64,000 nt of DNA from Phaeacidiphilus oryzae TH49 (GTDB lineage Bacteria > Actinomycetota > Actinomycetes > Streptomycetales > Streptomycetaceae): the NCBI RefSeq assembly GCF_000744815.1, contig NZ_JQMQ01000005.1, positions 4,348,055-4,412,054 of the forward strand, written 5' to 3'. Positions 47,832 to 64,000 of the stretch are shown here, in pieces (position 1 is the first letter of the stretch; every line of letters begins with the position of its first letter). The notes under the pieces were generated by a model, which searched no databases, was not told where the DNA came from, and saw nothing but the letters and a program-made list of their open reading frames with translations. The position numbers were made by a program, and so were the translations under genes.

Positions 47832-47844
47832 GAGAATGAGGGTC

Positions 47845-48882
47845 ATGACGACTGATCGCGCCAGCGCCGCAGCCAACGACCGCCCCCGCGTGTTCTCCGG
47901 GATCCAGCCGACCTCCGGCTCCTTCCACCTGGGCAACTATCTCGGCGCGGTCCGGCAGTGGGTCGACATGCAGGACACCCACGACACCTTCTACTGCGTC
48001 GTCGACCAGCACGCGATCACCGTCGAGCAGGACCCCGCGCAGCTGCGCGAGAACACCCGGGTCTCGGCCGCCCAGCTGCTGGGCGCCGGGCTCGACCCGG
48101 AGCGCTGCACCCTCTTCGTCCAGTCGCACGCCCCCGAGCACGCCCAGCTGGCCTGGGTGATGAACTGCATCACCGGCTTCGGCGAGGCCGCCCGGATGAC
48201 CCAGTTCAAGGACAAGTCGGCGAAGCAGGGCAACGACCACACCTCGGTCGGCCTCTTCACCTACCCGGACCTGATGGTCGCCGACATCCTCCTCTACCAG
48301 GCGGACGAGGTCCCGGTCGGCGAGGACCAGCGGCAGCACCTGGAGCTGAGCCGCACCCTCGCCGAGCGCTTCAACCACCGCTACGGGCAGACCTTCACCG
48401 TGCCGACCGCCTTCATCCCCAAGGCCACCGCCAAGATCTACGACCTCCAGGACCCGGGCGTGAAGATGTCCAAGTCGGCGTCCTCGCCCAAGGGCATCGT
48501 CAACCTGCTGGACGACGCGAAGACCAGCGCCAAGAAGTTCAAGAGCGCCGTCACCGACACCGAGACGGTGATCCGGTACGACGAGGAGGGCAAGCCTGGC
48601 GTCTCCAACCTGCTGCGCATCCACTCCGCGATGAGCGGGCAGACCGTCGAGCAGCTGGAGGCGCACTTCGAGGGCAAGATGTACGGCGCCCTGAAGACCG
48701 AGCTGGCCGAGCTGTTCGTGGAGTGGGTCACCCCGTTCCAGCGCCGGACCAACGAGTTCCTCGACGACCCGGCGGCGCTGGACAAGGTGCTGGCGCAGGG
48801 CGCCGAGAAGGCCCGCGCGGTCGCCGGCCCCACCCTGGCCGCGGCGTACGAGCGGATCGGCTTCCTGGCCTCCCGGCACTGA
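47845..48882 (+). CDS. trpS: Tryptophanyl-tRNA synthetase
   Basis: A 345-aa class I synthetase. [21 protein letters not shown] carries the HIGH-type element, [14 protein letters not shown] and [20 protein letters not shown] bind tryptophan and adenylate, and [12 protein letters not shown] is the KMSKS loop. I chose ATG 47845 (MTTDRAS) over ATG 47836 because homologues begin near there. GAGAAT lies 7 nt upstream, which could be a weak -10 for an extra leaderless transcript. Many Streptomyces have two trpS genes, one inducible by indolmycin-type inhibitors; which this is cannot be told here. Confidence 0.96.
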
Positions 48883-49031
48883 CTCCGGCCCGCCGGGGAC
48901 GTGTTCCGGCCCTTGCCCGGTTCGCTGCCCCTCGGGGCCGAGTCGTATTAGGGTCTGGGCAGCTTCAGGGGTTCCTCGGGTGATCCGGGGGAGGAGATGA
49001 GCGGACGATGGGCGGAGGAGGTGGGCGCGGA

Positions 49032-49622
49032 GTGATACCCGAGTCGACGTCGGAGACCGCTACCCGCGTCGCGGCGACGGTGCCCGGACCGCGGCCCGTG
49101 GTCGCGGCGCCCACCGTCATCGGGGTCTCCATCGCCGTCCCGGAGCCGTGGGCCACCGAGATCCAGGATCTCAGGGCGGGCTACGGCGATCCGCTCGCCC
49201 GGGCCATCCCGACCCACGTCACCCTCCTCCCGCCGACCCAGCTCGCGGCCGAGGCGCTGCCCAGGATCGGGGAGCACCTGCGCCGGGTCGCCGCCGGGCA
49301 GGCGCCGTTCCGGATGCAGCTGCGCGGCTCCGGCACCTTCCGCCCGGTGTCCCCGGTCACCTACGTCAAGCTGGACCAGGGGCTGCGGGAGTGCCGGGTG
49401 CTGGAGGCCGCGGTACGGGCCGGGCCGCTGGCGCGGGAGCTGGCCTTCCCGTACCACCCGCACATCACCGTCGGGCACGGGCTGCCGGAGGACGTGCTGA
49501 TCCGGGCCGAGAGCGAACTCCGCGGCTACTGGGCGGAGTTCGAGGTCACCTCGTTCTCCCTCTACCGCTTCGGCGCGGACGAGGTCTGGCGCCCGATGCG
49601 GGCCTTCGACCTGTCCGGCTGA
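49032..49622 (+). CDS. 2'-5' RNA ligase family protein
   Basis: A 196-aa 2H phosphoesterase-fold protein. The two family tetrapeptide motifs are HVTLL (in IPTHVTLLPPTQL) and HITVGH (in YHPHITVGHG), spaced as in LigT/ThpR-like proteins, with a final SLYRFGADEVW. Such proteins cleave cyclic phosphodiesters or ligate 2'-5' RNA ends; the cellular substrate is unknown. Start uncertain: GTG 49032 is preceded by GGAGGAGG, while ATG 49008 is preceded by GGAGGAG. It is conserved immediately after trpS in Streptomyces. Confidence 0.85.
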   Translation: MIPESTSETATRVAATVPGPRPVVAAPTVIGVSIAVPEPWATEIQDLRAGYGDPLARAIPTHVTLLPPTQLAAEALPRIGEHLRRVAAGQAPFRMQLRGSGTFRPVSPVTYVKLDQGLRECRVLEAAVRAGPLARELAFPYHPHITVGHGLPEDVLIRAESELRGYWAEFEVTSFSLYRFGADEVWRPMRAFDLSG

Positions 49623-49696: not shown

Positions 49697-51547
49697 ATGT
49701 CCCAGCTTCGGCTGTCCGCCCCCGGTCCCGGACCCGGCCCCCGCCCCGGAGAGGGCGAGCGGCCCTCGGCCGGCCGCCGCCGGCCCGCGCCGGCGGTACG
49801 CCGCTGCGCGGAACCGCTGGCGCTCGCCGGACCGGTCGCCGCCCTCGCCGTGCTGGGCTGGGCGCACCGCTGGGCGGCCGACGACGGCCTGATCTACACC
49901 CGGGTGGTGCGGCAGATCCTCGCCGGGCACGGCCCGGTCTCCAACCCCGGCGAGCGGGCCGAGGCCGGCACCGGCACCCTCTGGCAGTGGCTGGTCGCCG
50001 GGGTGGACGGGCCGATCGGGGTGGACCCGGCGCTGCTCGCGGTGGTCCTGGGGCTGGTCTGCAGCGCGGCCGGGCTGCTCGCCGCGCTGGACGGGACCCG
50101 GCTGCTGTACCGCGCGTCCACCGGCGCGCCGCTGCTGCCGCTGGGCGCGCTGGTCCCGCCGGCCCTCGCGGTGGAGTGGGACTTCGCGACCTCCGGCCTG
50201 GAGAACGGGCTGAGCACGCTGTGGATCGGGCTGTGCTGGCGGGTGCTGGTCCGCTGCCCCGCCCCGGAGCGGCCGGCCCCGGCGCCCCCGGCGCCCGCAG
50301 CGCCCCCGGCGGCGCGGGTGGCGGGCGGGGCGGTGCTGTTCGGGCTGGGGCCGCTGGTGCGGCCCGATCTCGCGCTGGTCACCGGGGTGTTCGCGGTGGC
50401 CTGGTGGCTGGCCGCCCGGCCGGGACGGCGGCGTACCCTCGCGGCCGCCGGCTGCGCCCTCGCGCTGCCGGCCGGCTACGAGCTCTTCCGGGCCGGCTAC
50501 TACGGGATCCTGGTGCCGCTTCCGGCGCTGGCCAAGGACGCCGGGGGCAGCGTCTGGCCGCGCGGGCTCGCCTACCTCGGCAACCTCGCCGGGCCGTACT
50601 GGCTCTGGGTGCCCGGGCTGCTGATCGCGGGGTGGGCGCTGTACGCCGCCCGCGGCCTGCGGGGCCGGTCCGGGCCGCGTGGGGTCCGCGGCCGCCGGGT
50701 GGCCGTGGTGGCCGCCCCGCCGGCTGCCGGGCTGGCCTCCGCCCTCTACGTCTGCCGGGTGGGCGGGGACTTCATGCACGGCCGGATGCTGCTGGAGGCC
50801 CTGCTCCTGGTGCTGCTGCCGGTGCTGCTGGTACCGGCCAACCGGGTCTCGGCGGCGGTCGCCGCCGCCGTCGCGGTGTGGGCGCTGGGCTGCGGGCTGT
50901 GGCTGCGCCCGCCCGCCTCGTCCGGGCGGCCGTACGAGGTCGTCGACGAACACGCCTTCTACCTGCGGGTGCTGTCCCAGCCGCATCCGGACTCGCTGGG
51001 CTCCCGGCGGTCCGTCGACCCCGGGCTGCGGGCCGACCTGGCCGCCGCCCGGCGGTCCGGGCGCCCGGTACTGCTCCTCCAGCCCGACCACGGCTCCGTC
51101 TACCGCGCGCTCCGGCTCGATCCGCGCCGGCCCGGCCGGATCGCGCTCGCCGATGCGGTGCTCGGCGAGAGCGGCTACCTCGTCCCGCTGGACGGGACCT
51201 CCATCGACCCGCTGGGCCTCTCCTATCCGCTCGCCGCCCACCAGGCCGCAGGCCCGGTCGGGTCCGCCGGCCGGGCCGGGCACAGCCGGCGGATCGCCGC
51301 GGCCTGGATCGCGGCGGACTACGGCGACCCGGCCGGGCCCGCCCCGCGCGGTGTCGATCCGCGGGCGGTGGACGCGGCCAGGGCCGCCCTGCGCTGCGGC
51401 CCGCTGGCCGAGCTGCAGCGCTCGGTCCGCGCGCCGCTCACCCCGAGCCGCTTCTGGCGGAACCTCACCGGCGCCTGGCGGCGCACCCTCTTCCGCTACC
51501 CGGCGGACCCGTTCGCGGCCGAGCGGGAGCTCTGCCGGACGCGCTGA
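49697..51547 (+). CDS. GT-C membrane glycosyltransferase, AftB-like
   Basis: A 616-aa protein with about ten predicted membrane helices in the first about 420 residues and a soluble C-terminal part. WAADDGLIYTRVVRQILAGH followed by PVSNPGERAEAGTGTLW holds the acidic ADD pair and the GxGPVxNPGERxE pattern of the AftB (GT89, arabinofuranosyltransferase) and ZomB-like group, which use decaprenyl-phosphate sugars outside the membrane. ATG 49697 has GGTGAAGG upstream. Streptomyces walls lack mycobacterial arabinogalactan, so the acceptor must be another glycopolymer. It is convergent with the GT4 gene, with stops 3 bp apart. Confidence 0.82.
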   Translation: MSQLRLSAPGPGPGPRPGEGERPSAGRRRPAPAVRRCAEPLALAGPVAALAVLGWAHRWAADDGLIYTRVVRQILAGHGPVSNPGERAEAGTGTLWQWLVAGVDGPIGVDPALLAVVLGLVCSAAGLLAALDGTRLLYRASTGAPLLPLGALVPPALAVEWDFATSGLENGLSTLWIGLCWRVLVRCPAPERPAPAPPAPAAPPAARVAGGAVLFGLGPLVRPDLALVTGVFAVAWWLAARPGRRRTLAAAGCALALPAGYELFRAGYYGILVPLPALAKDAGGSVWPRGLAYLGNLAGPYWLWVPGLLIAGWALYAARGLRGRSGPRGVRGRRVAVVAAPPAAGLASALYVCRVGGDFMHGRMLLEALLLVLLPVLLVPANRVSAAVAAAVAVWALGCGLWLRPPASSGRPYEVVDEHAFYLRVLSQPHPDSLGSRRSVDPGLRADLAAARRSGRPVLLLQPDHGSVYRALRLDPRRPGRIALADAVLGESGYLVPLDGTSIDPLGLSYPLAAHQAAGPVGSAGRAGHSRRIAAAWIAADYGDPAGPAPRGVDPRAVDAARAALRCGPLAELQRSVRAPLTPSRFWRNLTGAWRRTLFRYPADPFAAERELCRTR

Positions 51548-51550
51548 CGC

Positions 51551-52765
51551 TCAGCGGTCCAGCAGCTCGAAGAGGCGCTCCCACTGGTCGAGGACGGCGT
51601 CCGGCGAGTAGCGGCGGATGCTGTGGAACGCCTTGTCGCCCAGCCGGTCCCGGAGTTCCCGGCCGGCCATCAGGCGGCGGAGGGCGTCGGTGAACGCGGG
51701 CAGGTCGCCGGGCGGCGCGAGGAGGCCGTCCACCCCGTCCTCGATGATCTCCCGGATTCCCGGGGCGACGTCGAAGGCCACGCAGGGCACCCCGCAGGAC
51801 ATCGCCTCCAGCAGGGTGAGCGGGAAGCCCTCGGCCCGGGAGGGGAGGGCCAGCACGGCGGTCCCGGCGAGGACGCCGGGCACGTCGCCGGTGCCCCCGG
51901 CGAAGGTGACCGAGGAGGTGATCCGGAGGGCCTTGGCACGCCGCCGCAGCTCCTCGGTGTACGCGGCCGAGCCGCTGCCGTGGATCCGCAACTCCCAGCC
52001 CGGGAACGACTCGTGGAGCTCCGACCAGGCGTCGAGCAGCTGGTCCAGGCCCTTCTCCGGGGCGATCCTGCCGATCGCGGAGACCACCTTGGCGGAGCTC
52101 CGGAACCGCTCCTCCGGCGGCGGGAAGGGCAGCGGGTTGGGGACGGCGCCGACGTGGTTCATCCCGGTCTCGGTGATCCAGGCGTCGGCGTCCTCCCGGG
52201 TGAGGACCAGCATCCGGTCCACCTGGGAGCGGGCGTAGCCGCTCAGCACCCGGGCGTGCCGGGAGCTGTCGGCGGTGGCCTGGTAGGACTCGTGGCTCAT
52301 CCCGATGGTGTGCAGTCCCCTGCGGCGGGTGCGGGAGGTCCAGCCCATCGCCCAGATCTGCACGTTGACGACCACGCCGCCGGGCTCGGCCCCGGCCAGC
52401 AGGCGGTCGAACCGGCGTACCGCCGCGTCCCGGCGCTGCCGCCGTCTCAGCGCGCCGAGCGCCCGCCGGGGATGCAGCAGGGCGGCGACCAGCGGCCGGC
52501 GCGGGGTCCAGGGCGTCCCGGGGTGCCGGGGGTGGAGGGTCAGCACCTGGTAGCCGGGGGGCGGGCCGCTCGGCGACGGCGGGCGGCGGAGCTCGGGCGC
52601 CGCCGGGGCGATGCCGACCAGCCGGACCCGGTGGCCGCGCCCGGCGAGGAGGCCGGCCATGGTGTGCGCCCAGGCGGTGGCCCCGCCCAGCTCGTCGGCG
52701 GCGTTGACGACGAGGAAGACGTCCCGGGGGCGCGGCCCGCCGCGCGGCCCGCTGCGGGGGGTCAT
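51551..52765 (-). CDS. GT4 family glycosyltransferase
   Basis: A 404-aa GT-B fold enzyme. The N-terminal acceptor half starts FLVVNAADELGGATAWAHTMAGLLAGRGH. The C-terminal donor half has AIGRIAPEKGLDQLLDAW, a GGTGDVPGVLAGTAVLALPS stretch and the nucleotide-sugar EX7E motif EGFPLTLLEAM (Glu to Glu). No signal peptide, so it is cytoplasmic and probably acts on a lipid-linked acceptor. Its ATG (52765) overlaps the stop of the GT2-TagF gene (ATGA), so the two are translationally coupled and likely work on the same polymer. Confidence 0.92.
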   Translation of the reverse strand: MTPRSGPRGGPRPRDVFLVVNAADELGGATAWAHTMAGLLAGRGHRVRLVGIAPAAPELRRPPSPSGPPPGYQVLTLHPRHPGTPWTPRRPLVAALLHPRRALGALRRRQRRDAAVRRFDRLLAGAEPGGVVVNVQIWAMGWTSRTRRRGLHTIGMSHESYQATADSSRHARVLSGYARSQVDRMLVLTREDADAWITETGMNHVGAVPNPLPFPPPEERFRSSAKVVSAIGRIAPEKGLDQLLDAWSELHESFPGWELRIHGSGSAAYTEELRRRAKALRITSSVTFAGGTGDVPGVLAGTAVLALPSRAEGFPLTLLEAMSCGVPCVAFDVAPGIREIIEDGVDGLLAPPGDLPAFTDALRRLMAGRELRDRLGDKAFHSIRRYSPDAVLDQWERLFELLDR

Positions 52766-55700
52766 CGGGCCAGCTCCAGCATCCGGTCCACCACCCGGGC
52801 GGCGGCCCGCCCGTCGTCCAGGTCGCAGTACCGCTCGCGGAAGCCCGCGTACGCGTCCGCGTACCGCGCGGAGGTGGCGCCGAGGTTCCGCAGCGCGCCC
52901 ACGACCTCGGCGGAGGTGCTCAGCAGGGGGCCCGGGGCCTCCCGTTCGAAGTCGAGGTAGAAACCGCGCAGGATGTCCCGGTACCACTCCAGGTCGTAGG
53001 TGAAGAACAGCATCGGGCGGCCGGTGTGGGCGAAGTCGAACATCAGCGACGAGTAGTCGGTGACCAGGACGTCGGCGACCAGGAAGAGTTCGGTGACGTC
53101 CGGGTAGCTCGCCACGTCCCAGACGAAGCCGTCGCCGGCGTTCGGGACCTTCTCCACCACGTGGGTGTGCGGCCGGATCAGCAGCACGTGGTCGCGCCCC
53201 AGCTCGCGCCTGGCGTGGTCCAGGTCGAGGCAGAGGTCGAGGGCCACCCCGCCGTTGAACCGGCGCCGGTCCTCCCGCCAGGTGGGCGCGTAGAGGACCA
53301 CCTTCTTGTCCGGCGGCAGCCCCAGTCGGCGGCGCACCGCGTCGGCGGTCTTCTCCCGGTCCGCCGCGTACAGCAGGTCGTTGCGCGGGTAGCCGGACTC
53401 CAGCACCTCGCCCTGGTAGCGGAAGGCCCGGCGGAGCAGCGGGGTGGAGAACCGGTTGGGGGAGAGCAGCAGGCTCCAGTGCGGGGCCTCCCGCTCGATC
53501 TCGGAGAGGTAGTCCTCGCCGGCCAGGTGGGCGTTGTCGAAGTCGAAGCCGATCCGCTTGAGCGGGGTGCCGTGCCAGGTCTGCACGATCACCTGGCCCT
53601 CGCGGCGGCGGATCCACGGCGGGAAGTGGGTGCTGCCGACCACGTACCGGCTGCGGGCCAGCGCCTCGTGCCATTCGGCGCTGCCGAAGAGCACCGGCCG
53701 GGCGCTCGGCGGCATGGCCACATGCGGGCCGCGGACCGCCCACAGGTGCTCCACGTCGAGACCGCGGTCGAGCATCTCGCGGTGGATCGCCCACGGCGAG
53801 TCGCCGTACGGGCCGCCCTTGAAGTTGTCGAAGAGCACCGCCTCGCGCAGCGGCCGCCGGAGGGCGGCGGGGTAGTCGACGGTCTGCAGGCGGCGGCGGC
53901 CGTAGGCGCTGTCGGCCTCGCGATCAAGCGGGGGGTGGACGGTGAGCACCGCCCGGTCGTAGCCGACCCGGTCCAGCGCCGTGCGGGCGCCGCGGGCGGT
54001 CTGCTCGACGGGGAGGGAGCGGTGGAGGGCGGGGGCGGCCAGCACCGGGGTGTCCTCGGAGGTGTCCTCGGCGGCGCCCTGGCCGGCCGGCCCGGCCGTC
54101 GCCGGGTCGTCCGGCCGGTGCAGCAGCTGCCAGTCGCCGGGGGCGAGCGCCAGGTTCTCGCCCTCGTAGGCCGGCTCGGGGTGCAGCGGCAGCAGCACCT
54201 GGAAGCGCTCGGCGAACCGGCCGCCGGGGCCCGGCTTCGGCAGCGGGACGGTCAGCTCCTCCTTGGTCCAGTCCCGTTGCAGCACCAGCCGGCCGCGCGG
54301 GCCCGGGCAGCTCAGCTCCAGTTCGAGCGCCCCACGGGTGCGGGCGGAGACGGAGTGGAGGACCATCGCGGCCGGCTGGTCGGTGAGCTGGAGGTAGCCC
54401 TGCGGGGAGCGCTTGGCGTGGAGGGTGCCCGGCGGCAGCGGCAGTTGGACCGAGGCGCAGTCGGCCCGCTCGTCCACCACCACCGGCAGGTCGCTGCCGT
54501 CGGCCAGGTGCAGCCGGGTGTTCCAGCCGAGCCGGGTGAGGCCGAGCCCGCGGGCGGCGGTGAGGGCCGCGGCGGGGATCCGGGCGGTGAAGCCGCGGGT
54601 GCCCTCCGGGCCGGGCGCCCCCTCCGGGCCGGATGCGCCCTCCGGACCCGGTGCGCCCTCCGGTCCGGTGGTGGGGGCCGGTTCCAGGGCGGCCTCGATC
54701 CGGCGGCCCGAGTTGGCCTGGGTGAGCACCAGCACCGCGCCCTCCGACGGCAGTTCGCCGGCCAGCGCGAGGTCGAGGAGGAAACCCTCGGTGCCGTCGC
54801 CGGCCAGGCGCACCGCCGCCAGCCGGACGCGCACCCGCTCCACGGCCAGGTAGAGGTGCTGGTCCTTGATCTGCGGAACGATCCGGACGTCCGGCGCCAC
54901 CCAGTGCGCCGGCGGATACGCCCCGCTGCCCTTCGCGCCGGCCTTCAGCCGGCTGCGGGCCGGGCGCCCGCCGGAGACCGCCGCCACCGTCACCCGCCAG
55001 GTGCCCTCCACCCAGCGGCCGCCACGGCGCAGCCGCCGCACGTCGAGCGCGGTCTCGAAGCCCGCCCAGGCGCAGCTGACCAGCGACTGCCCGGACTCGG
55101 CGGTCGCCGACGGGTGCCGCGTCGAGCGGGCGCGCAGCAGCAGCGTGCGGCGGCTGCCCTGCTCGCGCAGCAGCACCGCCTTCGGCGTCGAGGACTTCCG
55201 GCGGGCCCCCAGGTACTTGGTGTAGGCGCGGCCCTCCAGCCGGAGGGTCTCGCCCGCCCAGACCGCCGCGTCGAGACGGGTGCGCAGCACCAGCTCGCGG
55301 TCGAGCCGGGCCACCGCGGGCGGCAGCGCGGAGCGCCCGGCCAGGAACGGGTAGGCGGCGCGGGCCCGGAGCGCGCCGCCGACCGGCACCCCGCCGGGGA
55401 ACTCCTTCTCGTACGCGAACAGCTGGAGGAGCTCGTCGAGCCGGCCCTCGGCGGTGAGGTGCATCTTGACCCGGGTGGAGACCAGGCAGCGGGCGATCGG
55501 CTCGGGGCCCATCCGCCGCAGCAGCGCGCCGACCTGCTCCAGGTAGACCCTCCGGTACTCCTCGTCGGCGGCCGGCAGCTGCTTGGCCAGGATGAGGATC
55601 TCCTCGTTGAGGAGGTTGTCCTGGTAGATCCGCAGCAGTTCACCGGCGTCGGCCGGGCGGGCCCCGGACTCGCGCAGCAGGAAGTCCCGCACCAGGTCGA

Positions 55701-56406
55701 TGGAGGCGATCCGGTCGCGGATCTGCCGGGGGTCGATCCGGCGCTGGGTGATGGAGAGGTTGCCGCCCTCGCGCTCCCGCCAGTTGTAGACCGGGGTGGA
55801 GAGGACGTCCACCGCCCTGGCCGCGAAGTGCCCGGGCAGGCTGACCGGGGCGTCCTCGTAGAGGATCCCCTCCGGGTAGCGGAAGTTGTGCCGGTCCCAG
55901 AACTCCCGCCGGTAGACCTTGTTCCAGGCGGTCCGGTCGATGATCAGCTCCGGGCGCTCCCGGAGGTGGGTGCGCAGCGCGGTGGTGGCGAAGGCCTTGC
56001 GGTGCAGCGCGGACGGGACGGCGCCGACCGAGCGGAAGCGCATCACGTTGCCGGAGGCGAAGTCGGAGCCGGTTTCGTCCAGGGTGTCCGTCATCAGCCG
56101 GTAGGCGTCCGGTGGCACGGTGTCGTCGCTGTCCACGAAGGCCAGGTAGCGGGCGTCCGGACGGCAGCGGGCGAAGCCGGCGTTGCGGGCCGCGCCCAGG
56201 CCCTGGTTCTGCTGCCGGTGGAAGCGGAACCGGGGGTCCGCGGCGGCGTACTTCTCCGCGATCGCGGGGCTGCCGTCGGTCGACCCGTCGTCCACCATCA
56301 GGCACTCGAAGTCCTCCATCGTCTGCGCTGCGATGGAGTCGAGGCACTCGGCGAGGTACGGCTCGACGTTGTGCACCGGGACGACGATCGAAAGTCGGGT
56401 GGCCAT
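52762..56406 (-). CDS. Bifunctional GT2 glycosyltransferase / TagF-type glycerophosphotransferase
   Basis: A 1214-aa fusion. The N-terminal GT-A domain (1-280) has SIVVPVHNVEPYLAECLDS, CLMVDDGSTDGS, the DxD in AFVDSDDTV and YEDAPVSLPGHFA. A long beta-rich middle (about 380-830) contains a GPEGA repeat. The C-terminal CDP-glycerol:polyglycerophosphate transferase domain (about 850-1210) has FDNFKGGPYGDSPWAI, QTWHGTPLKRIGFDF, SGYPRNDLLY, VVLYAPTWREDRRRF, HTHVV and VLVTDYSSLMFDF. It probably builds a glycosylated teichoic-acid-like polyol-phosphate polymer. ATG 56406 has a weak AAGGG site. It is the upstream partner of the GT4 gene. Confidence 0.92.
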   Translation of the reverse strand: MATRLSIVVPVHNVEPYLAECLDSIAAQTMEDFECLMVDDGSTDGSPAIAEKYAAADPRFRFHRQQNQGLGAARNAGFARCRPDARYLAFVDSDDTVPPDAYRLMTDTLDETGSDFASGNVMRFRSVGAVPSALHRKAFATTALRTHLRERPELIIDRTAWNKVYRREFWDRHNFRYPEGILYEDAPVSLPGHFAARAVDVLSTPVYNWREREGGNLSITQRRIDPRQIRDRIASIDLVRDFLLRESGARPADAGELLRIYQDNLLNEEILILAKQLPAADEEYRRVYLEQVGALLRRMGPEPIARCLVSTRVKMHLTAEGRLDELLQLFAYEKEFPGGVPVGGALRARAAYPFLAGRSALPPAVARLDRELVLRTRLDAAVWAGETLRLEGRAYTKYLGARRKSSTPKAVLLREQGSRRTLLLRARSTRHPSATAESGQSLVSCAWAGFETALDVRRLRRGGRWVEGTWRVTVAAVSGGRPARSRLKAGAKGSGAYPPAHWVAPDVRIVPQIKDQHLYLAVERVRVRLAAVRLAGDGTEGFLLDLALAGELPSEGAVLVLTQANSGRRIEAALEPAPTTGPEGAPGPEGASGPEGAPGPEGTRGFTARIPAAALTAARGLGLTRLGWNTRLHLADGSDLPVVVDERADCASVQLPLPPGTLHAKRSPQGYLQLTDQPAAMVLHSVSARTRGALELELSCPGPRGRLVLQRDWTKEELTVPLPKPGPGGRFAERFQVLLPLHPEPAYEGENLALAPGDWQLLHRPDDPATAGPAGQGAAEDTSEDTPVLAAPALHRSLPVEQTARGARTALDRVGYDRAVLTVHPPLDREADSAYGRRRLQTVDYPAALRRPLREAVLFDNFKGGPYGDSPWAIHREMLDRGLDVEHLWAVRGPHVAMPPSARPVLFGSAEWHEALARSRYVVGSTHFPPWIRRREGQVIVQTWHGTPLKRIGFDFDNAHLAGEDYLSEIEREAPHWSLLLSPNRFSTPLLRRAFRYQGEVLESGYPRNDLLYAADREKTADAVRRRLGLPPDKKVVLYAPTWREDRRRFNGGVALDLCLDLDHARRELGRDHVLLIRPHTHVVEKVPNAGDGFVWDVASYPDVTELFLVADVLVTDYSSLMFDFAHTGRPMLFFTYDLEWYRDILRGFYLDFEREAPGPLLSTSAEVVGALRNLGATSARYADAYAGFRERYCDLDDGRAAARVVDRMLELAR

Positions 56407-56626
56407 CTGCTGCGGGCCCTTCTTGCTGCGGCGAGTATTGGCAGGTCGCGGACGCGGTTCGCCTCGCCTCTCCGAGTGCAACGGTGCGTCGCGGATTGGG
56501 TTGCTCAGCGCCGGGGCGTATCACCCGCGAGCGTGAGCCGGTGGGGGCCGGACTGACCGGCGAACGCTTGTCCCGGACGGTCCTTCCGGACGGTCCTTCC
56601 GGGTGGGCCTCCCAGGTGGTCCGGCG

Positions 56627-58104
56627 CTAGCGCCGGTCCGGGCGGCGCAGCAGCCGGTGCAGCCGCCTGAGCAGCGCTCCGGCGACCGCTCGGGAGCCGC
56701 CGACGTGGAGGACGGCGGAGCCGTCCCCCGCCGGCCGACCCAGACGAGGTGGAGGCCGGGCCTGGGGAGGAGGCGCAGCCGCGGCCGGGGGGCGGGGAGG
56801 CGGCCGCGGACCACCCGCAGGGGCAGGTCCTGGTCGGGCCCGGGGTCCCTGGTCCGGCCGTCGCCGGTGCCTCCGGTGCCTCCCGTGCCGGCGGGGGAGC
56901 GCAGCAGCAGCCGGGGCTCGCTGCGGCCCGGCCGGTCCGGTACCGGCAGCGTTCTGCGGAAGGTCAGTTCGGCGGTGTCCGGCTCGGCGCCGGTCAGCAG
57001 GTCGGCGACCCGGACGCCCTTCGGCAGCCGGACGCCGGTCCGCACGGTCACCTCCAACCGCCGTCCGCCGCGCGGGAGTTCGAGCCGGGTGCCCTCGGCG
57101 CCGGAGTCGCCGGGGCCGAACTGGAAGCGGGCCAGCCGGACCAGGTCGTCGGTCCTGCGCTCGCGGATCAGCGCCAGCCGGAGCCGGCCGAGCGGCGGCA
57201 GCCCGGTCATCCTCCCGTCCGGGAGGAACTCGGCGGCGATCCGCCCGGCCTCCTCGGTGTAGGCCTCCCGGCGCTCCCGCGGCCAGTCCGGGAACCCGGC
57301 CCGGAAGCGGCCCAGCACCTCCTGCTCGGCCCAGCGCCGGAGGAGGGCGTCCCGGCCCGGTCCGGGCTCGGTGTACTGCACCACCGCCCGCAGCGCCTCC
57401 CGCACCACCCCGTAGAACTCCGCCGGCTCCGGCACCTGGTGGGTGAGATGCTCGAACCCCGGGCGGTGCACCAGGTGGTAGCAGTCGTAGTCGCGGACCA
57501 CCGCGATCGACCGGGCGAGGAAGTACGCCGGCACCACCAGCGGCTGCTCCTCGGCCAGTCGCACCCCCTCGGCGAACCGCAGCTTGTGCCGCTCGACCAG
57601 CGAGCGCCGGAAGAGCTTGTGCGCGGTCAACGACCAGACGGCATGGGTGGAGTGGACGTCCCCGACCTCGGCCCCCCTGGCGAACGGCCTGGTCGGCGCC
57701 TTGCGGCCGACCCCGCGGATCCGGCCGAGCACGACGTCGGACCCGTGCCGCTCGGCCGCCGCCACCATCCGCTCCAGGCCCTCGTCGCCGAGGTAGTCGT
57801 CGGGGTCGGCGAAGAACAGGTACTCGCCCGCGGCCAGTTCGATCGCGCGGTTGCGCGGGCCGCCGGGCGCACCGGAGTTGGGCTGATGGAGCACCCGGAT
57901 CCGGCCCGGGTGGCGGGCGGCCCAGTCGTCCAGGAGCTCGCCGCTGCCGTCGGTCGAACCGTCGTCCACGGCCAGCACCTCGATCCGCTCGAAGCCGAGG
58001 GACTGTCGGACGATCGACGCCAGGCACTCGCCGAGGTGCTCGGCGGCGTTGTAGACCGGGACGACGACGCTGACCGTCGGCGGTCTCGGGGGGTTCACGG
58101 TCAT
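56627..58104 (-). CDS. GT2 family glycosyltransferase, apparent C-terminal frameshift
   Basis: A GT-A enzyme of about 492 residues if repaired. VSVVVPVYNAAEHLGECLAS, VLAVDDGSTDGSGELLDDW, the DxD in FADPDDYLG and RNRAIELAAGEY are intact, with HTH-free helical and beta C-terminal parts. After GLHLVWVGR (near 56735) the frame changes: the natural-looking ending AGDGSAVLHVGGSRAVAG and its RRLHRLLRRPDRR tail is in another frame and stops at 56627, while the uninterrupted frame runs on to 56521 with non-coding composition. One missing G in the CGGGGG stretch (about 56725-56732) explains it. ATG 58104 overlaps the upstream stop. The catalytic domain is unaffected. Confidence 0.85.
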
Positions 58105-59663
58105 GGTCGGACCGGCCTTCTGGTGCGGAGGAGCGGAAGGGCGAGGACGCCGAGGAAGACCGGCGGCAGCATGTACCGGGCCAGCGGCGCGGGGTTGGCG
58201 GCCAGCACGGAGAGCTGGAGTCCGGCCGTCAGGGCGATCACCACGGCGCCGGTCCGCCATCCGCGCCGCCGGGCGAGGGCCCAGCCGACCGCGTACGCGG
58301 CATAGCACCACAGGGCGCCCCGCCAGAGCAGCCACTGGGTCTGCCGGGCGGTGCTCAACTCGTAGGACCAGACGGCGAGTCGGTGGAGCGTACGGTCGAC
58401 GGGCCGGGGCGTCAGCGCCGCTCGGTAGCGGCTGTGCCGCATGCTGCTCCAGTCGGCCCAGCCGAAGAGGTCGGCGGGGACCACCGGGGAGGAGATCATC
58501 GTCTGGCCGTCCCGCGCGGCCGGGCCGGGCCAGATGCCCCAGCCGATCTGAGCACGGCAGAGGTGGCCCTGGGCCACCGCCTGCGGGGTGCGCTCCAGTA
58601 CCCGCCACCAGATCCGCATCAGCTGGTCGTTGCGGGCCCCGGCGGCCGCCCGGTCGAAGGGCGCGGCCATGGTGTCGTCCACGTCCCAGCAGTCGGCGCC
58701 CCGGCCGCCCCAGTGCGAGAGCGGGGCGACCTCGGCCATCACCCGCCGGTCGGCCGCGGTGAAGGTCTGCGGGTACTCGCCGTAGGCGACCGCGATGTCG
58801 GCGTAGTTGAAGGCGTACAGCTGGTCGGTGCGCGGCATCTGGATGCCCACCGCCGGGTACACCGCGAACTGGAGGACCAGGTAGACGGCGGTCGCCGCGG
58901 CCACCGCGGCGGCCACCCAGCGGCGCATCAGCGGCAGCCCCGCGATCAGCAGCGGCGCCGCCGCCAGCACCACCAGCACGCTGTTGTTGCGGAACAGCGC
59001 GAGGCCGAGGAAGCCCGCCTGGAGGAGGGCCAGCCGGCGCCAGAAGCCGGCGTCCCGCACCCCCGCCCGGCCGTCCAGGACGCGGGCCAGCAGCCGCAGC
59101 GCGGCGGCGAAGGAGAGGACGGCGGACAGCGTGAACGCCGAGTCCTTCCAGACGAAGACCGGCAGTGTGCCGGTGGCCGGCAGCAGCACCAGGGCCAGCG
59201 CCGCCGCGGCCGAGTGGCGGCCGCGGGCGCCGAGGTCCCTCAGTGCCACGCAGGTGTAGGCCAGCACCGCGGCCGCGGCGACGACCTGGGCCAGGGTCAG
59301 CGGCCAGAGACCACCGGACAGCCGGATGGCGGCCCAGACCAGGCAGTTGTAGAGCACCGAGTGGTTGTCCATCCAGTGCCCGGTGGTGACCTGCCAGGTG
59401 TAGGCGACCGAGTCGTAGCTGAGCAGCCCCGGGAAGAACGCCGCCCACCAGCCGAGGAGGACGGCCAGGGTGCCGAGGAAGACGGCGGCGGGCAGCCGCC
59501 GCGCGGGCGCCGGCAGGCGGCGCTCCAGGCCCTCCCGCAGGCGGCGCGGACCGCCTGCGGGGGCCTTTCCGCGCTGCCCGGCGGACGGTCGCTCCGGTGG
59601 GGCGGTGGCGCGCGGGATCAGGACACTGTCCCTGAGGCGGGTGAAGCGGGGGCTGAGGCTCAT
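58101..59663 (-). CDS. Polytopic membrane protein, GT-C glycosyltransferase-like (DUF6020-type)
   Basis: A 520-aa protein with about ten predicted helices (AAVFLGTLAVLLGWWAAFFPG, AALALVLLPATGTLPVF and others). PGLLSYDSVAYTWQVTTGHW in the first outer loop has an acidic YDS pair as in GT-C enzymes, and VFVWKDSAFT is a second conserved spot (KD) seen in DUF6020-type proteins. A large extracellular loop (about 310-420) has YAFNYADIAVAYGEYP. ATG 59663 follows AGGAGAG. It is coupled to the GT2 gene by ATGA. Probably adds or flips a lipid-linked sugar at the outer face; the substrate is unknown. Confidence 0.78.
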   Translation of the reverse strand: MSLSPRFTRLRDSVLIPRATAPPERPSAGQRGKAPAGGPRRLREGLERRLPAPARRLPAAVFLGTLAVLLGWWAAFFPGLLSYDSVAYTWQVTTGHWMDNHSVLYNCLVWAAIRLSGGLWPLTLAQVVAAAAVLAYTCVALRDLGARGRHSAAAALALVLLPATGTLPVFVWKDSAFTLSAVLSFAAALRLLARVLDGRAGVRDAGFWRRLALLQAGFLGLALFRNNSVLVVLAAAPLLIAGLPLMRRWVAAAVAAATAVYLVLQFAVYPAVGIQMPRTDQLYAFNYADIAVAYGEYPQTFTAADRRVMAEVAPLSHWGGRGADCWDVDDTMAAPFDRAAAGARNDQLMRIWWRVLERTPQAVAQGHLCRAQIGWGIWPGPAARDGQTMISSPVVPADLFGWADWSSMRHSRYRAALTPRPVDRTLHRLAVWSYELSTARQTQWLLWRGALWCYAAYAVGWALARRRGWRTGAVVIALTAGLQLSVLAANPAPLARYMLPPVFLGVLALPLLRTRRPVRP

Positions 59664-59882
59664 ACGACTCTCCTCTGGCGCCGAGGCGCCGAGGCGGAAA
59701 AGGCGGCAGGGCGGGAGGCGAAAGGCGGCCCTCCGGCCAGCGGCTTCAACGGGGGACCGGTGGCGGAAGGTTGCGGCGGGCACGGCCCGATCACCCGGAT
59801 GAGCGAACCCCGCGCGTCCGACCCGGGCGGGGCTCGTTGTAGTCCTTCGGACCACACCGCCGCCAGGAAGGGTCGGGCCGCT
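59664..59882. other. Divergent intergenic region within the wall-polymer cluster
   Basis: 219 bp separate the minus-strand DUF6020-type gene from the plus-strand DUF2304 gene and must hold both promoters. I could not assign convincing -10/-35 pairs. AGGAAGGG (59866-59873) is the ribosome site of the DUF2304 gene. Confidence 0.3.
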
Positions 59883-60260
59883 GTGCAACTCTCCGTCCTC
59901 ACCTCGGTCACCAGCGTGGTGATCGTGCTGTGCATCCTCGAACTGCTGCGCCGCCAACAGCTGCGGGAGAAGTACGCCGTGGTCTGGCTGCTGATCGGCC
60001 TGGCCGTGATGCCGCTCGGCTTCGATCCCTCGCTGCTGGACTCGGTGGCCGGCGCGATGGGCGTCGCCTCCGGGGCGAGCCTGGTGCTGTTCTCCGGATT
60101 CGTGCTGATCCTGCTGGTCAGCCTGCATCTGAGCTGGGAGACCAGCCGGCTGGAGGCGGAGACCAGGTCGCTCGCCGAGGAGGTGGCGCTGCTCCGCACC
60201 GAGCTGGCCGAGGTCCGGCGGACCGCGGCCGGGGACGCCCCGGTGGGGACGGTCCGGTGA
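59883..60260 (+). CDS. DUF2304 family membrane protein
   Basis: A 125-aa protein with three predicted helices: VLTSVTSVVIVLCILELLRR, KYAVVWLLIGLAVMPLGF and GASLVLFSGFVLILLVSLHL. A C-terminal coiled coil follows (ETSRLEAETRSLAEEVALLRTE). REKYAVVWLL is the DUF2304 signature. GTG 59883 follows AGGAAGGG by 9 nt. Its TGA overlaps the GTG of the next GT2 gene. DUF2304 proteins regularly accompany polyprenyl-phosphate glycosyltransferases and may anchor them or help flip the product. Confidence 0.9.
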   Translation: MQLSVLTSVTSVVIVLCILELLRRQQLREKYAVVWLLIGLAVMPLGFDPSLLDSVAGAMGVASGASLVLFSGFVLILLVSLHLSWETSRLEAETRSLAEEVALLRTELAEVRRTAAGDAPVGTVR

Positions 60261-60973
60261 TCGGCGAGCGGCGGGTGCTGGTCGTCCTCCCGGCCTGGAA
60301 CGAGGCGGAGGGACTGGCGGACGTGCTGGCGGAGCTGGCCGAGCGGCTGCCGGGGGCGGACGCGCTGGTCGTCGACGACGGCTCGACGGACGGCACGGCC
60401 GGGGTCGCCGAGGCGGCGGGGGCGGTGGTGGCCAGGCTGCCGTACAACCTCGGGGTGGGCGGGGCCATGCGGCTCGGCTACCGCTACGCCCACGAGCACG
60501 GTTACGACGTGGCCGTGCAGGTCGACGCCGACGGCCAGCACGATCCCGGCTATGTGCCGGCGCTGCTGCGCGCGCTGGACGCGGGGGCGGACCTGGCGAT
60601 CGGCGCGCGGTTCAGCGGTGAGGGCGCGTACCGGGTGCGCGGGCCGCGGCGGTGGGCGATGCGGCTGCTCTCCGCGGTGCTCTCGCGGATCGCGGGGACC
60701 CGGCTGACCGACACCACCTCAGGGTTCCGGGCCTGCAACCGGCGCACCATCGAGCTGTTCGCGCGGTGGTATCCGGTCGAGTACCTGGGCGACACGGTGG
60801 AGAGCACGGTCGGCGCGGTGCGCTGCGGGTTGACGGTCCGTCAGGTGCCGGTGGCGATGCGCCCGCGTACCACCGGCCGGCCCTCCGCGTCGCCGACGCG
60901 GGCGCTGGTGTACCTGCTGCGCGCGGCGCTGGTGCTCGCGCTGGCGATGGGCCGCCGGGCGCCGGCGGGCTGA
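60257..60973 (+). CDS. GT2 family polyprenyl-phosphate glycosyltransferase (DPM1-like)
   Basis: A 238-aa GT-A enzyme of dolichyl-phosphate mannosyltransferase type. VLVVLPAWNEAEGLADVL, LVVDDGSTDGTAGVA, LPYNLGVGGAMRLGYRYA, the DxD in VQVDADGQHDP and DTTSGFRACNRR are present. No membrane helix except a short hydrophobic end (LVYLLRAALVLALAM), consistent with needing the DUF2304 partner. Predicted role: transfer of a sugar from a nucleotide donor to polyprenyl phosphate, giving the donor for nearby GT-C enzymes. The stop lies inside a 17-bp tandem duplication. Confidence 0.9.
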   Translation: MIGERRVLVVLPAWNEAEGLADVLAELAERLPGADALVVDDGSTDGTAGVAEAAGAVVARLPYNLGVGGAMRLGYRYAHEHGYDVAVQVDADGQHDPGYVPALLRALDAGADLAIGARFSGEGAYRVRGPRRWAMRLLSAVLSRIAGTRLTDTTSGFRACNRRTIELFARWYPVEYLGDTVESTVGAVRCGLTVRQVPVAMRPRTTGRPSASPTRALVYLLRAALVLALAMGRRAPAG

Positions 60974-60992
60974 TCGCGCCGGCGGGCTGATC
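60959..60992. repeat. 17-bp tandem duplication at a stop codon
   Basis: GCGCCGGCGGGCTGATC occurs twice in direct tandem (60959-60975, 60976-60992), with a third partial copy at 60993-61002. The TGA in the first unit is the stop of the GT2 gene. Confidence 0.9.
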
Positions 60993-61119
60993 GCGCCGGC
61001 GGCGCCGCCCGGCGGCGACGCGTCACCCGGTTGCCCTACCGAATCGTGTCCTCCGTGGTGGGCGGTCGTTGGAGTGCGGTCGGGCGGGGGGCCGCCCGGC
61101 TGCGCCCGGGGAGGTCCGG

Positions 61120-62775
61120 ATGACCACACTGCTGCCCCGTCAACCGGTCGAGGTCGCGCCGCCCGCCGCGCGTCCCGCGCTGCGGACCCGCTGGTGGCCC
61201 GCCGTGGCGGAGGCGCTGCTCGCGGTCGGCGCCGCCCTCGGCTTCGCCGCCTGGGCGACGACCATCGGCGACAGCCCGGTGCTGAGGGTCGGTCAGGTCA
61301 GCGGGCTGGCCGCGCTGCAGTTCCGGCTGGCCCTCTGCGGAATCGTTTTGCTGGTGGTCGCGGGGCTCGCGGCCGGCGCCGGGGGCCGCCGCCGGGAGTC
61401 CTCCGTCCGCCTCTGCGCCGCCGCCGCGGCCGGCCTCGGCGGCGGAATGCTGGCCGGCGGCGTGGTCTTCGCACTGCACGGCACCAGCTGGCCGCTGCTC
61501 GGTCAGGGCGGGGACAACATCCGGCTGATCGCCTGGACCGACGACGTCCTGCGCACCGGCCGGTTCCACAACGTCTACCCGCCCGGGATCCCCCGCCTCG
61601 CGGCCTGGATCGCCCGCTACGCCGAGCACGACGACGCGAACGCCGCCCTCAAACCGCTCTTCCTCACCGCCTCCGCGCTGGTCGCCCCCGCCGGCTACCT
61701 CGCCTGGCGGACGGTCCTGCCGCCGCTCACCGCGCTGGCCGTCGCGCTGGCCGGCGCCTACGCGCTGAACGCGCCGGAGAAGCCGTACCCGCTGCTGGTG
61801 CTGGTCATGGTGGTGCCGCTGCTCGCCAAGGCGGTGCAGTGGCTGCGGCTCTCGCCCGGCTTCGGCCGGGCCGGGGCGTTCGCCCGGGGAGCCGGCCTGG
61901 GGCTGCCGTTCGGGCTGCTCTTCCTGCTGTACGCGGGCCAGCACGTGTGGTCCTTCCCCGCCTTCGCGGTGCTGCTGCCCGCCGCGCTGCCCTGGCGCTC
62001 CGGACGGGCCGGCCTGCTGCGCGGGGCGCTGCTGCTGGCCGGCCTGGCCGCGGGCTTCCTCGCCGTGGGCGGGGCGTACCTGCGCCAACTGCTGGGCGCC
62101 GCCGGCACCCACGACACCTACTGCTCCGCCTGGACGCTGGCGGACCCGGCGGCCGTGGGCGTCTTCCCGCTGACCGCGGGCCCCTGGCCGCTGCTGCTGG
62201 CGGGCGCCGGGACGGCGATCGCGCTCGGCCTCCGGACACCGGCCGTGAGCGCGGCCCTGGCCTGCTTCGGCGGCGCCTGGCTGCTGCGGTTCTACCTCGC
62301 CCACCGGATGGCCCGGGACGCCGACGTCCACCTCTTCACCCACACCGAGGCCGAGGTGCAGTACACCCTGGTGGTCCTGACGGTGCTGGGCGCCTCGCTC
62401 GCCGTCCGCGAGCTGGTACGGCACTGGGGCGGTGGGCCGGGGAGCGGCAGCCCTGGGGGCGGCGGCCCGGCGGGCGCCGTCGCCGCCCGGGGCGCGGTGG
62501 GGCTGCTCTTCGGCGCGCTGCTCTTCTGCGGGGTCGCCGGGTCCGCGGCGACCGACGCGGTGCTCGCCGTCCACCCGGTGCCCGGGCGGGCCGTGCTGGG
62601 CAACGCGGCCTGGATCGCCCAGCACCTCCGCAACCCCGGCGGCAGCTGCTCCCGCTACGCGGTCGGCGGCCGCTGCGTGACCGCCCCGCGCCGGCCGGTG
62701 CCGCCGCCCTTCGACACCACCGGCCGACTGCGCTGCCCGGACTTCGGGTTCTCCTCCCGGCCGCCCGCCGGCTGA
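61120..62775 (+). CDS. GT-C membrane glycosyltransferase, AftA-like
   Basis: A 551-aa protein with about eleven predicted helices. LHGTSWPLLGQGGDNIRLIA followed by WTDDVL carries the acidic GGDN/TDD pair, and VYPPGIPRLAAW is the YPPxxP motif of the AftA (GT85, galactan arabinofuranosyltransferase) group. KPLFLTASAL and NAPEKPYPLLVLVMVVPL resemble the AftA KP and P-x-Y elements. The C-terminal soluble part is short, with four Cys (CSRYAVGGRC, YCSAW, LRCPDF). ATG 61120 follows GGGGAGG. A paralogue follows at 62874. The acceptor is unknown, since Streptomyces does not make mycobacterial arabinogalactan. Confidence 0.8.
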   Translation: MTTLLPRQPVEVAPPAARPALRTRWWPAVAEALLAVGAALGFAAWATTIGDSPVLRVGQVSGLAALQFRLALCGIVLLVVAGLAAGAGGRRRESSVRLCAAAAAGLGGGMLAGGVVFALHGTSWPLLGQGGDNIRLIAWTDDVLRTGRFHNVYPPGIPRLAAWIARYAEHDDANAALKPLFLTASALVAPAGYLAWRTVLPPLTALAVALAGAYALNAPEKPYPLLVLVMVVPLLAKAVQWLRLSPGFGRAGAFARGAGLGLPFGLLFLLYAGQHVWSFPAFAVLLPAALPWRSGRAGLLRGALLLAGLAAGFLAVGGAYLRQLLGAAGTHDTYCSAWTLADPAAVGVFPLTAGPWPLLLAGAGTAIALGLRTPAVSAALACFGGAWLLRFYLAHRMARDADVHLFTHTEAEVQYTLVVLTVLGASLAVRELVRHWGGGPGSGSPGGGGPAGAVAARGAVGLLFGALLFCGVAGSAATDAVLAVHPVPGRAVLGNAAWIAQHLRNPGGSCSRYAVGGRCVTAPRRPVPPPFDTTGRLRCPDFGFSSRPPAG

Positions 62776-62873
62776 GCCCGCCCGGCCCGCCCGCCCGCTC
62801 CGCTGGGCACGGCGCGCCGGGCGGCCGGGCGCCGGCTTCGCGGCCTTACCTGCGGGGCTTAGGGTCTCCCGTC

Positions 62874-64000
62874 ATGGATGTGGTGCAGGAGGCGGCCGGG
62901 CCGGGCGGGGCCACGGTGGGGTGTCGGGCGGACCCGGACGAGGCCGGCGGGCGGAGGTGGTACCGCCGCCGGATCGGCGGCCCGGCCCTTGAGCTGGTGG
63001 TCGCCGTCGGCGTGGCGGTCGGGTTCACCTACTGGGCAAGGAACCTGACGGACAATCCGATGGAGCGGATCGGCCAGGTCAGCGCCCTCGCCGCGCTCCA
63101 GTTCCGGTTCGCGGTGGTCGCCGTGGTGCTGCTGGCCGCGCTCGTCGCGACCGTGCGCGGCCGGTTCACCCGCTACCGGCCGGTGGTGCTGCGGGTGGCC
63201 TGCGCCGGGCTCGCCGGGCTGGCCAGCGCGCTGGTCGCGGCGGCGCTGGTGTTCGCGCTGCGCGGCACCGTCTGGCCGCTGAACGGCCAGTACGGGGACA
63301 CCGGCCAGCTCGCCACCTGGGCGACGGACATCATCCACGGCAAGGGCATCCAGCCCTTCTACCCGCCCGCCTTCCCGTACCTGCTGGCCTGGTGGTCGCA
63401 GGCGTTCACCGGGGGCAACACCTGGCACGGACTCCAGCAGATGGAGATCCTCACCACCGCGCTCTACGGCCCCACGGCGTACGCCGCCTGGCGGCTGACG
63501 GTCCGTCCGCCGTGGGCGCTGGCCATGGTGGTGGTCGGGGCGATGCCGCTGATCGCGCCGTACAAGCCGTACACCAACATCGTGCTGGTCATGCTGGTGC
63601 CGCTGTTCGCCCGCTTCGTGCGCGGGATGCGCCGGGCGGCGGGGCGCGGGCCGCGGCGGAACGCCGTCGGCGCGGTGCTCGCCGGGGCCGGCTTCGGCGT
63701 GCTGTTCCTGGTCTACTCCGGCTGGTACGTGTGGGCCGCGCCGGGGATGCTGGTCGCCGCGCTGGCCTCGGTGCCGTGGGCGCGCGGGCGCCGGGCCCGG
63801 CTGGTCTCGCTGGGGTACGCGGCGGGCGCGGCGGTGGTCGCCTTCCTGGTCTCGGCGGTCAACCTGATCCCGCTGCTCACCTCGGCGAGCTCCGGGACCA
63901 CCGACCGCTACGCCTACTTCGACACCTACATCGAGCCGACGTACATCGCGATGTTCAGGTTCAACCTGCCGGCCGGGGCCACCACGCTGAGCTGGCCGCC
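62874..64000 (+). CDS. Second AftA-like GT-C glycosyltransferase, truncated by window edge
   Basis: At least 375 residues, running off the right edge. It is paralogous to the preceding gene: IGQVSALAALQFRF matches VGQVSGLAALQFRL, and LRGTVWPLNGQYGDTGQLATW with WATDII and PFYPPAFPYLLAWW repeats the GGDN...TDD and YPPxxP pattern. PYKPYTNIVLVMLVPLFARF parallels EKPYPLLVLVMVVPLLAK. ATG 62874 has TAGGGT (62860-62865) 8 nt upstream and no strong ribosome site. The tandem pair arose by duplication and the copies may use different acceptors or linkages. Confidence 0.8.
   Translation, partial: MDVVQEAAGPGGATVGCRADPDEAGGRRWYRRRIGGPALELVVAVGVAVGFTYWARNLTDNPMERIGQVSALAALQFRFAVVAVVLLAALVATVRGRFTRYRPVVLRVACAGLAGLASALVAAALVFALRGTVWPLNGQYGDTGQLATWATDIIHGKGIQPFYPPAFPYLLAWWSQAFTGGNTWHGLQQMEILTTALYGPTAYAAWRLTVRPPWALAMVVVGAMPLIAPYKPYTNIVLVMLVPLFARFVRGMRRAAGRGPRRNAVGAVLAGAGFGVLFLVYSGWYVWAAPGMLVAALASVPWARGRRARLVSLGYAAGAAVVAFLVSAVNLIPLLTSASSGTTDRYAYFDTYIEPTYIAMFRFNLPAGATTLSWP

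Follow-up and report, generated by a model that had tools for sequence, protein, structure and literature searches.

A candidate composite wall-glycopolymer island with AftB-like and AftA-fold glycosyltransferases in Phaeacidiphilus oryzae

The window analysed here is a 64,000-nucleotide stretch of the 7.8 Mb genome of Phaeacidiphilus oryzae TH49 (C5:4348055-4412054), and its right-hand end carries glycosyltransferase (GT) genes related to the mycobacterial arabinosyltransferases AftA and AftB beside a TagF-type gene cluster. In tuberculosis bacteria, AftB adds the final arabinose to the cell wall, and the D-arabinose used there is lipid-linked. The explanation favoured here, which is moderately probable, is that these genes form a composite wall-glycopolymer island, in which two extracytoplasmic, lipid-linked decoration systems stand beside the TagF-type cluster. 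This explanation rests on homology, fold, conserved catalytic residues, gene order and co-occurrence, from which we infer the activities, the donor of the second system, the acceptor and the flippase.

Gene organization of the candidate island

Genes were called by codon usage in the window and in the next 40 kb to its right. An earlier note on the window had described an AftB-like protein, tandem AftA-like proteins, a GT2-TagF fusion, a GT4, several GT2s and a DUF2304/DPM1-like pair, and all of these were recovered by gene calls, Pfam and NCBIfam (Table 1). The cluster is bordered by trpS-LigT (47836-49622) on one side and by YihY-DacC-sdhBA (72431 onwards) on the other. The rightward extension, which the earlier note had proposed, changed the meaning of the cluster. 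Beyond the window, positions 65193-72355 encode a GT-C-like protein, GT87, GtrA, UbiA, PAP2, DprE1 and DprE2, and a predicted polyprenyl-phosphate-D-arabinofuranose (polyprenyl-P-Araf) module begins about 4 kb beyond the right edge of the window.

In the first decoration system, UbiA would put ribose-5-phosphate from phosphoribosyl pyrophosphate (PRPP) on polyprenyl phosphate, PAP2 would remove the 5-phosphate, and DprE1/DprE2 would epimerise C2 to give polyprenyl-P-Araf on the inner face of the membrane. GtrA may flip this lipid, and D-Araf would be transferred outside by the AftB-like GT-C protein and possibly also by the GT87 protein of the UbiA operon. In the second system, the DUF2304/GT2 pair would make a polyprenyl-phosphate sugar, which the two AftA-fold GT-C proteins would transfer. 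The likeliest and nearest plausible acceptor would be the polymer built by the GT4, the GT2s and the GT2-TagF fusion. Since a search for Emb arabinan polymerases found none, the Araf side chains are expected to be single or short, and an AftB-type retaining enzyme would be expected to form a beta linkage.

Table 1. Features of the island, of its extension to the right and of a family found beside AftB relatives
Feature	Position	Strand	Supporting match or remark
AftB-like GT-C (GT89-related), predicted polyprenyl-P-arabinofuranose user	49697..51547	+	AftB homology, residues, co-occurrence
GT4 glycosyltransferase	51551..52765	-	PF13692 126 bits, PF00534 126 bits
GT2-TagF fusion, predicted wall polyol-phosphate polymerase	52762..56481	-	PF04464 340 bits, PF00535 130 bits
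GT2 with TarS linker	56521..58104	-	PF00535 111 bits, PF22181 90 bits
Polytopic membrane protein, possible GT-C	58101..59663	-	sub-threshold PF19484 DUF6020 17.7 bits (cut-off 28.3); 8 hydrophobic segments
DUF2304 small membrane protein, presumed partner of next gene	59883..60260	+	PF10066 79 bits, cut-off 25.5
GT2, predicted polyprenyl-phosphate-sugar synthase (PpgS/DPM1-like)	60257..60973	+	PF00535 77 bits
AftA-fold GT-C 1	61069..62775	+	start TTG 61069 or GTG 61204; fold and profile match to AftA
AftA-fold GT-C 2	62874..64592, past window edge at 64000	+	36% identical to copy 1
GT-C-like protein without family	65193-66425	+	
GT87	66392-67783	-	best NCBIfam model a mannosyltransferase, 151 bits (cut-off 413)
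GtrA, putative flippase	67780-68256	-	Pfam 63 bits, cut-off 26.1
UbiA phosphoribosyltransferase	68253-69263	-	NF008978 411 bits, cut-off 207
PAP2	69256-69819	-	superfamily-level match
DprE1	70133-71521	+	660 bits, cut-off 500
DprE2	71600-72355	+	384 bits, cut-off 250
Protein of about 520 amino acids after AftB relative (other genomes)	L177 11392-12930; L174 11090-12664		no Pfam match (two members scanned)

The AftB-like protein and its predicted donor module

The AftB-like protein matches AftB of the cryo-EM structure 9dlf over residues 47-605 of 616 (phmmer E 3e-70) and the AftB family model NF041481 at E 1e-80 (271.5 bits). The available text of PMC12041299 gives D62, T91, E172, R221, R372 and T274 as catalytic or donor-binding residues of AftB. 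With D61 included, seven such positions were compared, and six of them (D61, D62, T91, E172, R221 and R372) are identical in the window protein, in which the catalytic D62 of the DD motif, R221 and R372 correspond to D63, R222 and R363. The six residues are kept in all 12 loci compared (L153-L164, one of which is the window gene itself). Near full-length homology and retention of the catalytic residues uphold the AftB-like assignment of the earlier note and speak against a position outside arabinosyltransferase-like clades, and the protein is probably a polyprenyl-P-arabinofuranose-using transferase.

The genes just past the window are assigned by homology to the polyprenyl-P-Araf module of the mycobacterial route, which leads from PRPP to polyprenyl-P-D-arabinofuranose as described in the available text of PMC11127046. 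PAP2, UbiA, GtrA and GT87 form one leftward unit, from 69819 down to 66392, with overlaps of 4-8 bases, and DprE1 and DprE2 run rightward from 70133. UbiA aligns with the solved structure 8j8j at E 1.6e-75 and DprE1 with solved DprE1 at E 7e-128. UbiA scores 305 bits against a further model, NF008976, and does not reach its cut-off of 474.

Co-occurrence was counted in one sample of 150 Streptomycetaceae genomes; the genome collection used contains one genome of the source genus. AftA-fold genes were counted at E 1e-10, AftB relatives at E 1e-20 with the AftB family model, DprE1 and UbiA over their curated cut-offs, and Emb as PF04602 at E 0.001. The AftA-fold family was carried by 34 genomes, DprE1 by 69, UbiA by 73 and the AftB relative by 21; Emb was found in none of the 150 genomes, while the Corynebacterium glutamicum control was found. 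DprE1 is present in every one of the 21 genomes that carry an AftB relative, against 69/150 overall (Fisher p 1.2e-8, without correction for ancestry). The earlier note had held that the donor could not be predicted. One donor is now predictable, because the polyprenyl-P-Araf module adjoins the cluster and AftB relatives occur only in DprE1-positive genomes, and the source organism probably decorates its wall with D-arabinose, as far as its gene content indicates.

The AftB model gives three to seven match rows per genome in G001, G003, G017, G019, G030 and G037, which belong to the large-genome genera g2 and g4, and one to seven rows in each of the seven positive genomes listed for these two genera. 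Genus g4 is presumably Embleya. In 8 loci, the gene right after the AftB relative encodes a member of a family of about 520 amino acids, possibly a second GT-C.

The DprE1 position that we take to be the benzothiazinone target cysteine is Ala in both DprE1 copies of the source genome. Among 19 loci of other genomes, 16 have Ala there and 3 have Thr; of five Mycobacteriales-like sequences, three have Cys and two have Ala. The source genome also has a second, more distant DprE1-DprE2-UbiA set (L076 8000-11100, which is C5:285000-288100). Its proteins are 47, 48 and 38% identical to those of the first set, respectively, with 401 bits for DprE1 and 228 bits for UbiA.

The AftA-fold tandem pair and its sugar

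The tandem pair matched nothing in Pfam, NCBIfam or the PDB sequences. From an alignment of 47 family sequences, relatives from other genomes included, an AF2 model was built of the first copy alone (61204-62772; pLDDT 89.4, pTM 0.91). Foldseek placed AftA 8if8 at the top for this model (E 2e-8, TM 0.64 by query), and the first other entry followed at E 5.5e-3. VIA-align gave Z 24.3 with 8if8 (452 residues, rmsd 4.0 A). Oligosaccharyltransferases followed from Z 15.5 down, with AftB 9dlh at 10.1 and EmbB at 8.9.

Profile comparison points in the same direction. The AftA-fold family matched AftA in hhalign at 96.1% (E 3.4e-9), with the AftA side made of five sequences from PF12250-positive genomes (5/198). 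In this comparison D104 falls on the Asp of the ISVDQ motif of AftA, and YPP on the AftA FYP/FYPP stretch; an Asp is invariant across the family. Nine other neighbour families reached at most 6.1% in hhalign. As single sequences, which makes the comparison a weak one, the 58101-59663, 65193-66425 and GT87 proteins could not be linked by profile to either AftA or AftB. The tandem pair is thus classed from its profiles as a remote AftA homologue, and the first copy has the AftA fold in its predicted model. The likeness to AftA shows only at the level of profile-profile comparison and fold. Profiles of 29 and of 47 family sequences did not find AftA among PDB sequences, the AftA_N and AftA_C Pfam domains had no match in the 29 members scanned, and both AftA domains (PF12249 and PF12250) are absent from the source genome.

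A generic GT-C nature of the AftB-like and AftA-fold proteins, with a shared fold as their sole likeness to AftB and AftA, would be very improbable and is disfavoured. GT-C folds are widespread, and the absence of an AftA Pfam match would fit such an origin. Against it stand the AftB homology near full length with six of seven residues kept, the lead of about 9 Z units that AftA has over the next fold, and the low hhalign values of the other families.

A recent tandem duplication of the pair was considered and rejected on the 36% identity of the copies and their separate tree positions. In a quick tree with long branches, the first copy groups with two Streptomyces rows (support 99) and the second with a mostly Kitasatospora set (support 83). 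One further family member (L105) is on a contig labelled as a Kofleriaceae (Myxococcota) metagenome-assembled genome, which may reflect transfer or mis-binning.

The gene company of the family was compared in two sets of loci. The first comprised 20 stretches of 20 kb from 19 genomes, with UbiA in two (L050 and L051) and DprE1 in none. The second was pattern-seeded and lists 76 loci with flanks of at most 10 kb each; some of the loci are shorter and some share a genome, and family names in it rest on one Pfam-scanned member each. By tblastn, UbiA, DprE1 and DprE2 were absent from all 76 loci listed. DUF2304 was present in 43, a polyprenyl-phosphate-sugar-synthase-like GT2 in 44 by tblastn and 43 by clustering, and the two together in 42. 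At least one of the rhamnose genes RmlA, C and D was present in 38 and a ribosomal S10-like operon, recognized from protein lengths and order, in 31. In many of the loci L078-L152, AftA-fold genes occur with rhamnose synthesis, GT2, a 442-amino-acid protein, DUF2304/GT2 and this apparent S10 operon.

These data bear on the idea that all three GT-C proteins use polyprenyl-P-arabinose, with one priming and the others extending or capping, as in mycobacteria. The idea draws on the fold and profile of the pair, which match AftA above all else compared, on the alignment of the invariant Asp with that of AftA, on the arabinose module about 4 kb away in the source genome, and on two other genomes with UbiA-PAP2-GtrA near an AftA-fold gene. 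Against it stand the gene company described above, the absence of the AftA Pfam domains from the source genome and of Emb from the sample, and the 25 of 34 AftA-fold genomes that have no DprE1 over the cut-off. The remaining 9/34 compare with about 16 expected (p 0.011 for the departure); at a looser DprE1 threshold of E 1e-80 the count is 12/34 (p 0.08). It was dropped as the leading explanation, since the family is mostly DprE1-free and tied to DUF2304/GT2, and we consider it rather unlikely. The AftA-fold pair probably uses a sugar other than arabinose. Of the AftA-like arabinosyltransferase relatives in the earlier note, the AftA fold and remote homology stood, while the word arabinosyltransferase became an unsafe name, because the family keeps company with DUF2304/GT2 in other genomes and not with an arabinose module.

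In L050 (5900-13300) and L051 (500-20000), the AftA-fold gene lies near PAP2-UbiA-GtrA, and the respective genomes, G142 and G035, have no DprE1 match at E 1e-80. Loci of this type are candidates for decoration with ribofuranose instead of arabinofuranose.

The TagF-type cluster as putative acceptor source

The Glyphos_transf domain (PF04464) of the GT2-TagF fusion scores 340 bits against a cut-off of 22.1. The fusion gene starts at TTG 56481 or ATG 56406. Against the TarF model NF041712 its product scores 288 bits, and the equivalog cut-off of 550 is not reached. In the GT2/TarS-linker gene the codon-position signal fades in the last part (56521 to about 56750-56800), which may indicate a frameshift or a degraded C-terminus. 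Eleven LCP-family matches occur elsewhere in the source genome, and such proteins could ligate a TagF-type polymer. The DUF2304 and GT2 genes overlap by 4 bp; the GT2 (60257-60973) scores 90.9 bits against the PpgS model NF058614 and does not reach its equivalog cut-off of 370. Of the earlier suggestion of a teichoic-acid-type polymer decorated outside the membrane, the teichoic-acid-type polymerase is supported, and decoration outside from polyprenyl-phosphate sugars is supported as a prediction.

Neighbourhoods of AftB relatives were taken from 15 of the 20 other genomes, and not every copy was covered. In four of the 15 (G043, G138, G066 and G105), Pfam-confirmed TagF-family genes lie near the AftB relative; G043 also carries the arabinose module, at a distance of about 18 kb from that gene.

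Several observations weigh against the composite island. The AftB-like protein is far under the equivalog cut-off of NF041481 (271.5 vs 1050 bits), a cut-off that was reached by none of the 150 genomes nor by the C. glutamicum control. T274 of AftB, a donor contact, is Pro in the window protein; across L153-L164 this position is Pro in 11 and Ser in 1. The Fisher value for DprE1 and AftB relatives takes no account of shared ancestry, and 48 of the 69 genomes with DprE1 lack an AftB relative at the threshold used. Nineteen DprE1 stretches of 20 kb, chosen from DprE1 genomes other than the source, gave no match to an AftB or AftA-fold gene, which indicates that the module is usually not beside those genes. 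No TagF-like match was found near the fetched AftB relatives of 11 of the 15 other genomes. The best model of the GT87 protein, a mannosyltransferase, speaks against an arabinose donor for that enzyme, and the L050/L051 arrangement makes pentofuranose use by the AftA-fold family possible.

The same neighbourhoods suggest that the arabinose module and the AftB relative could serve another target, such as protein or pilus O-glycosylation, a lipoglycan or an exopolysaccharide, at a site that merely collects envelope genes. Both flanks, trpS/LigT and YihY/DacC, are present in 12 of the 19 DprE1 loci with DprE1-DprE2 between them (11 with UbiA) and with no matched TagF, AftB or AftA-fold gene; a TagF-fusion match was found in 2 of the 19 (L068 and L070). 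Five Kitasatospora-group genomes (L038, L039/L040, L042, L044 and L051) instead have AftA-fold and TagF-fusion matches next to one or both of these flanks, so the two parts are separable. Three of these five TagF matches are in the protein cluster of the fusion (L082, L120 and L148, covering L040, L044 and L051). Pseudomonas pilus arabinosylation by a related pathway has been proposed, according to the available text of PMC11127046. Against this alternative stand the TagF-family genes beside AftB relatives in four other genomes, three of which (L174, L176 and L179) have them away from this site. It is judged unlikely, though of some weight, and the composite island with two decoration systems is preferred.

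Literature and significance

A 2018 survey (PMC6194230) confines arabinogalactan, together with the genes for it, to Corynebacteriales and some neighbouring orders. Teichulosonic acid and polydiglycosylphosphate are given as Streptomyces wall polymers in the accessible part of PMC11481543, which contains no word beginning with 'arabin'. Arabinose is listed among the whole-cell sugars of Embleya scabrispora, E. hyalina and strain NEAU-wh3-1, and the description of Embleya, a Streptomycetaceae genus, gives traces of arabinose and no galactose (PMC7143961 and PMC6113628, as far as their available text goes). The arabinose is a phenotypic lead in favour of the preferred explanation, provided that these strains carry the genes. 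In the titles and abstracts of the open-licence literature, the scope of the search, no description of this locus type or pathway in streptomycetes was found.

A broader proposal can be put forward tentatively, with less than even confidence. Several Streptomycetaceae genera may make a D-arabinofuranosylated wall teichoic acid, in which an AftB relative, supplied by the mycobacterial polyprenyl-P-arabinose pathway, caps a TagF-type polymer with beta-D-Araf and no arabinan is formed, while the AftA fold serves other lipid-linked sugars made by DUF2304/GT2. The arabinogalactan machinery would then have been put together from components whose age and spread exceed those of Mycobacteriales. About half of the sampled genomes carry the donor half (DprE1 in 69/150) and 21 carry an AftB relative, all without Emb, which makes the origin of the arabinogalactan wall testable in harmless laboratory strains.

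The island also suggests a possible source for the whole-cell arabinose of Embleya and offers an AftB relative for work on mechanism. It brings to light an AftA-fold family without AftA Pfam matches in the 29 members scanned or NCBIfam matches in the two of the window. DprE1 enzymes without the benzothiazinone-target cysteine are predicted in Streptomycetaceae.

Comparison with known systems

The predicted second decoration system resembles PpgS/Rv3632/Rv3779, which places galactosamine on arabinogalactan, in that a small membrane protein adjoins a GT2 whose polyprenyl-P-sugar goes to a GT-C that decorates a wall polymer (PMC3485146 and PMC9671496, available text). It differs in the score of its GT2, which is under the PpgS cut-off, and in its GT-C, which is AftA-fold. 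Rv3632 is presumably a DUF2304 protein.

AftA (GT85, 8if8) is the closest fold by a wide margin, with a significant profile match and aligned Asp and YPP regions. In contrast to AftA, the AftA-fold family lacks AftA_N and AftA_C and is accompanied by DUF2304/GT2, often with rhamnose genes, and not by the arabinose module.

The mycobacterial polyprenyl-P-arabinose pathway (Rv3806c UbiA, Rv3807c, DprE1, DprE2 and Rv3789) is matched by UbiA, DprE1 and DprE2 over their cut-offs; PAP2 and GtrA genes, a candidate 5-phosphatase and a candidate flippase, overlap UbiA. Unlike that pathway, the module described here occurs outside Mycobacteriales, without Emb, and has Ala at the DprE1 cysteine position. 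The three-component pentofuranose systems of Kelly et al. 2024 (PMC11127046) share a polyprenyl-P-ribose synthase, optional epimerases, with DprE1/E2 for Araf, a flippase and a post-polymerisation GT-C, as far as the available text describes them. Their prototype differs in its HAD-type phosphatase module, MATE flippase, GT136 and Gram-negative host, and Streptomyces has no occurrence in the main text of that paper.

AftB (GT89; 9dlf/9dlh, PMC12041299 as available) is the nearest comparison for the first system, with homology over residues 47-605, the DD pair, T91, E172, R221 and R372, and the company of a polyprenyl-P-arabinose module. The AftB-like protein differs in reaching about a quarter of the equivalog cut-off, in having Pro at T274, and in having no Emb found whose product it could cap. 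In the available text of PMC11127046, AftB is the only precedent for beta-linked Araf, and the AftB relative described here would extend that precedent.

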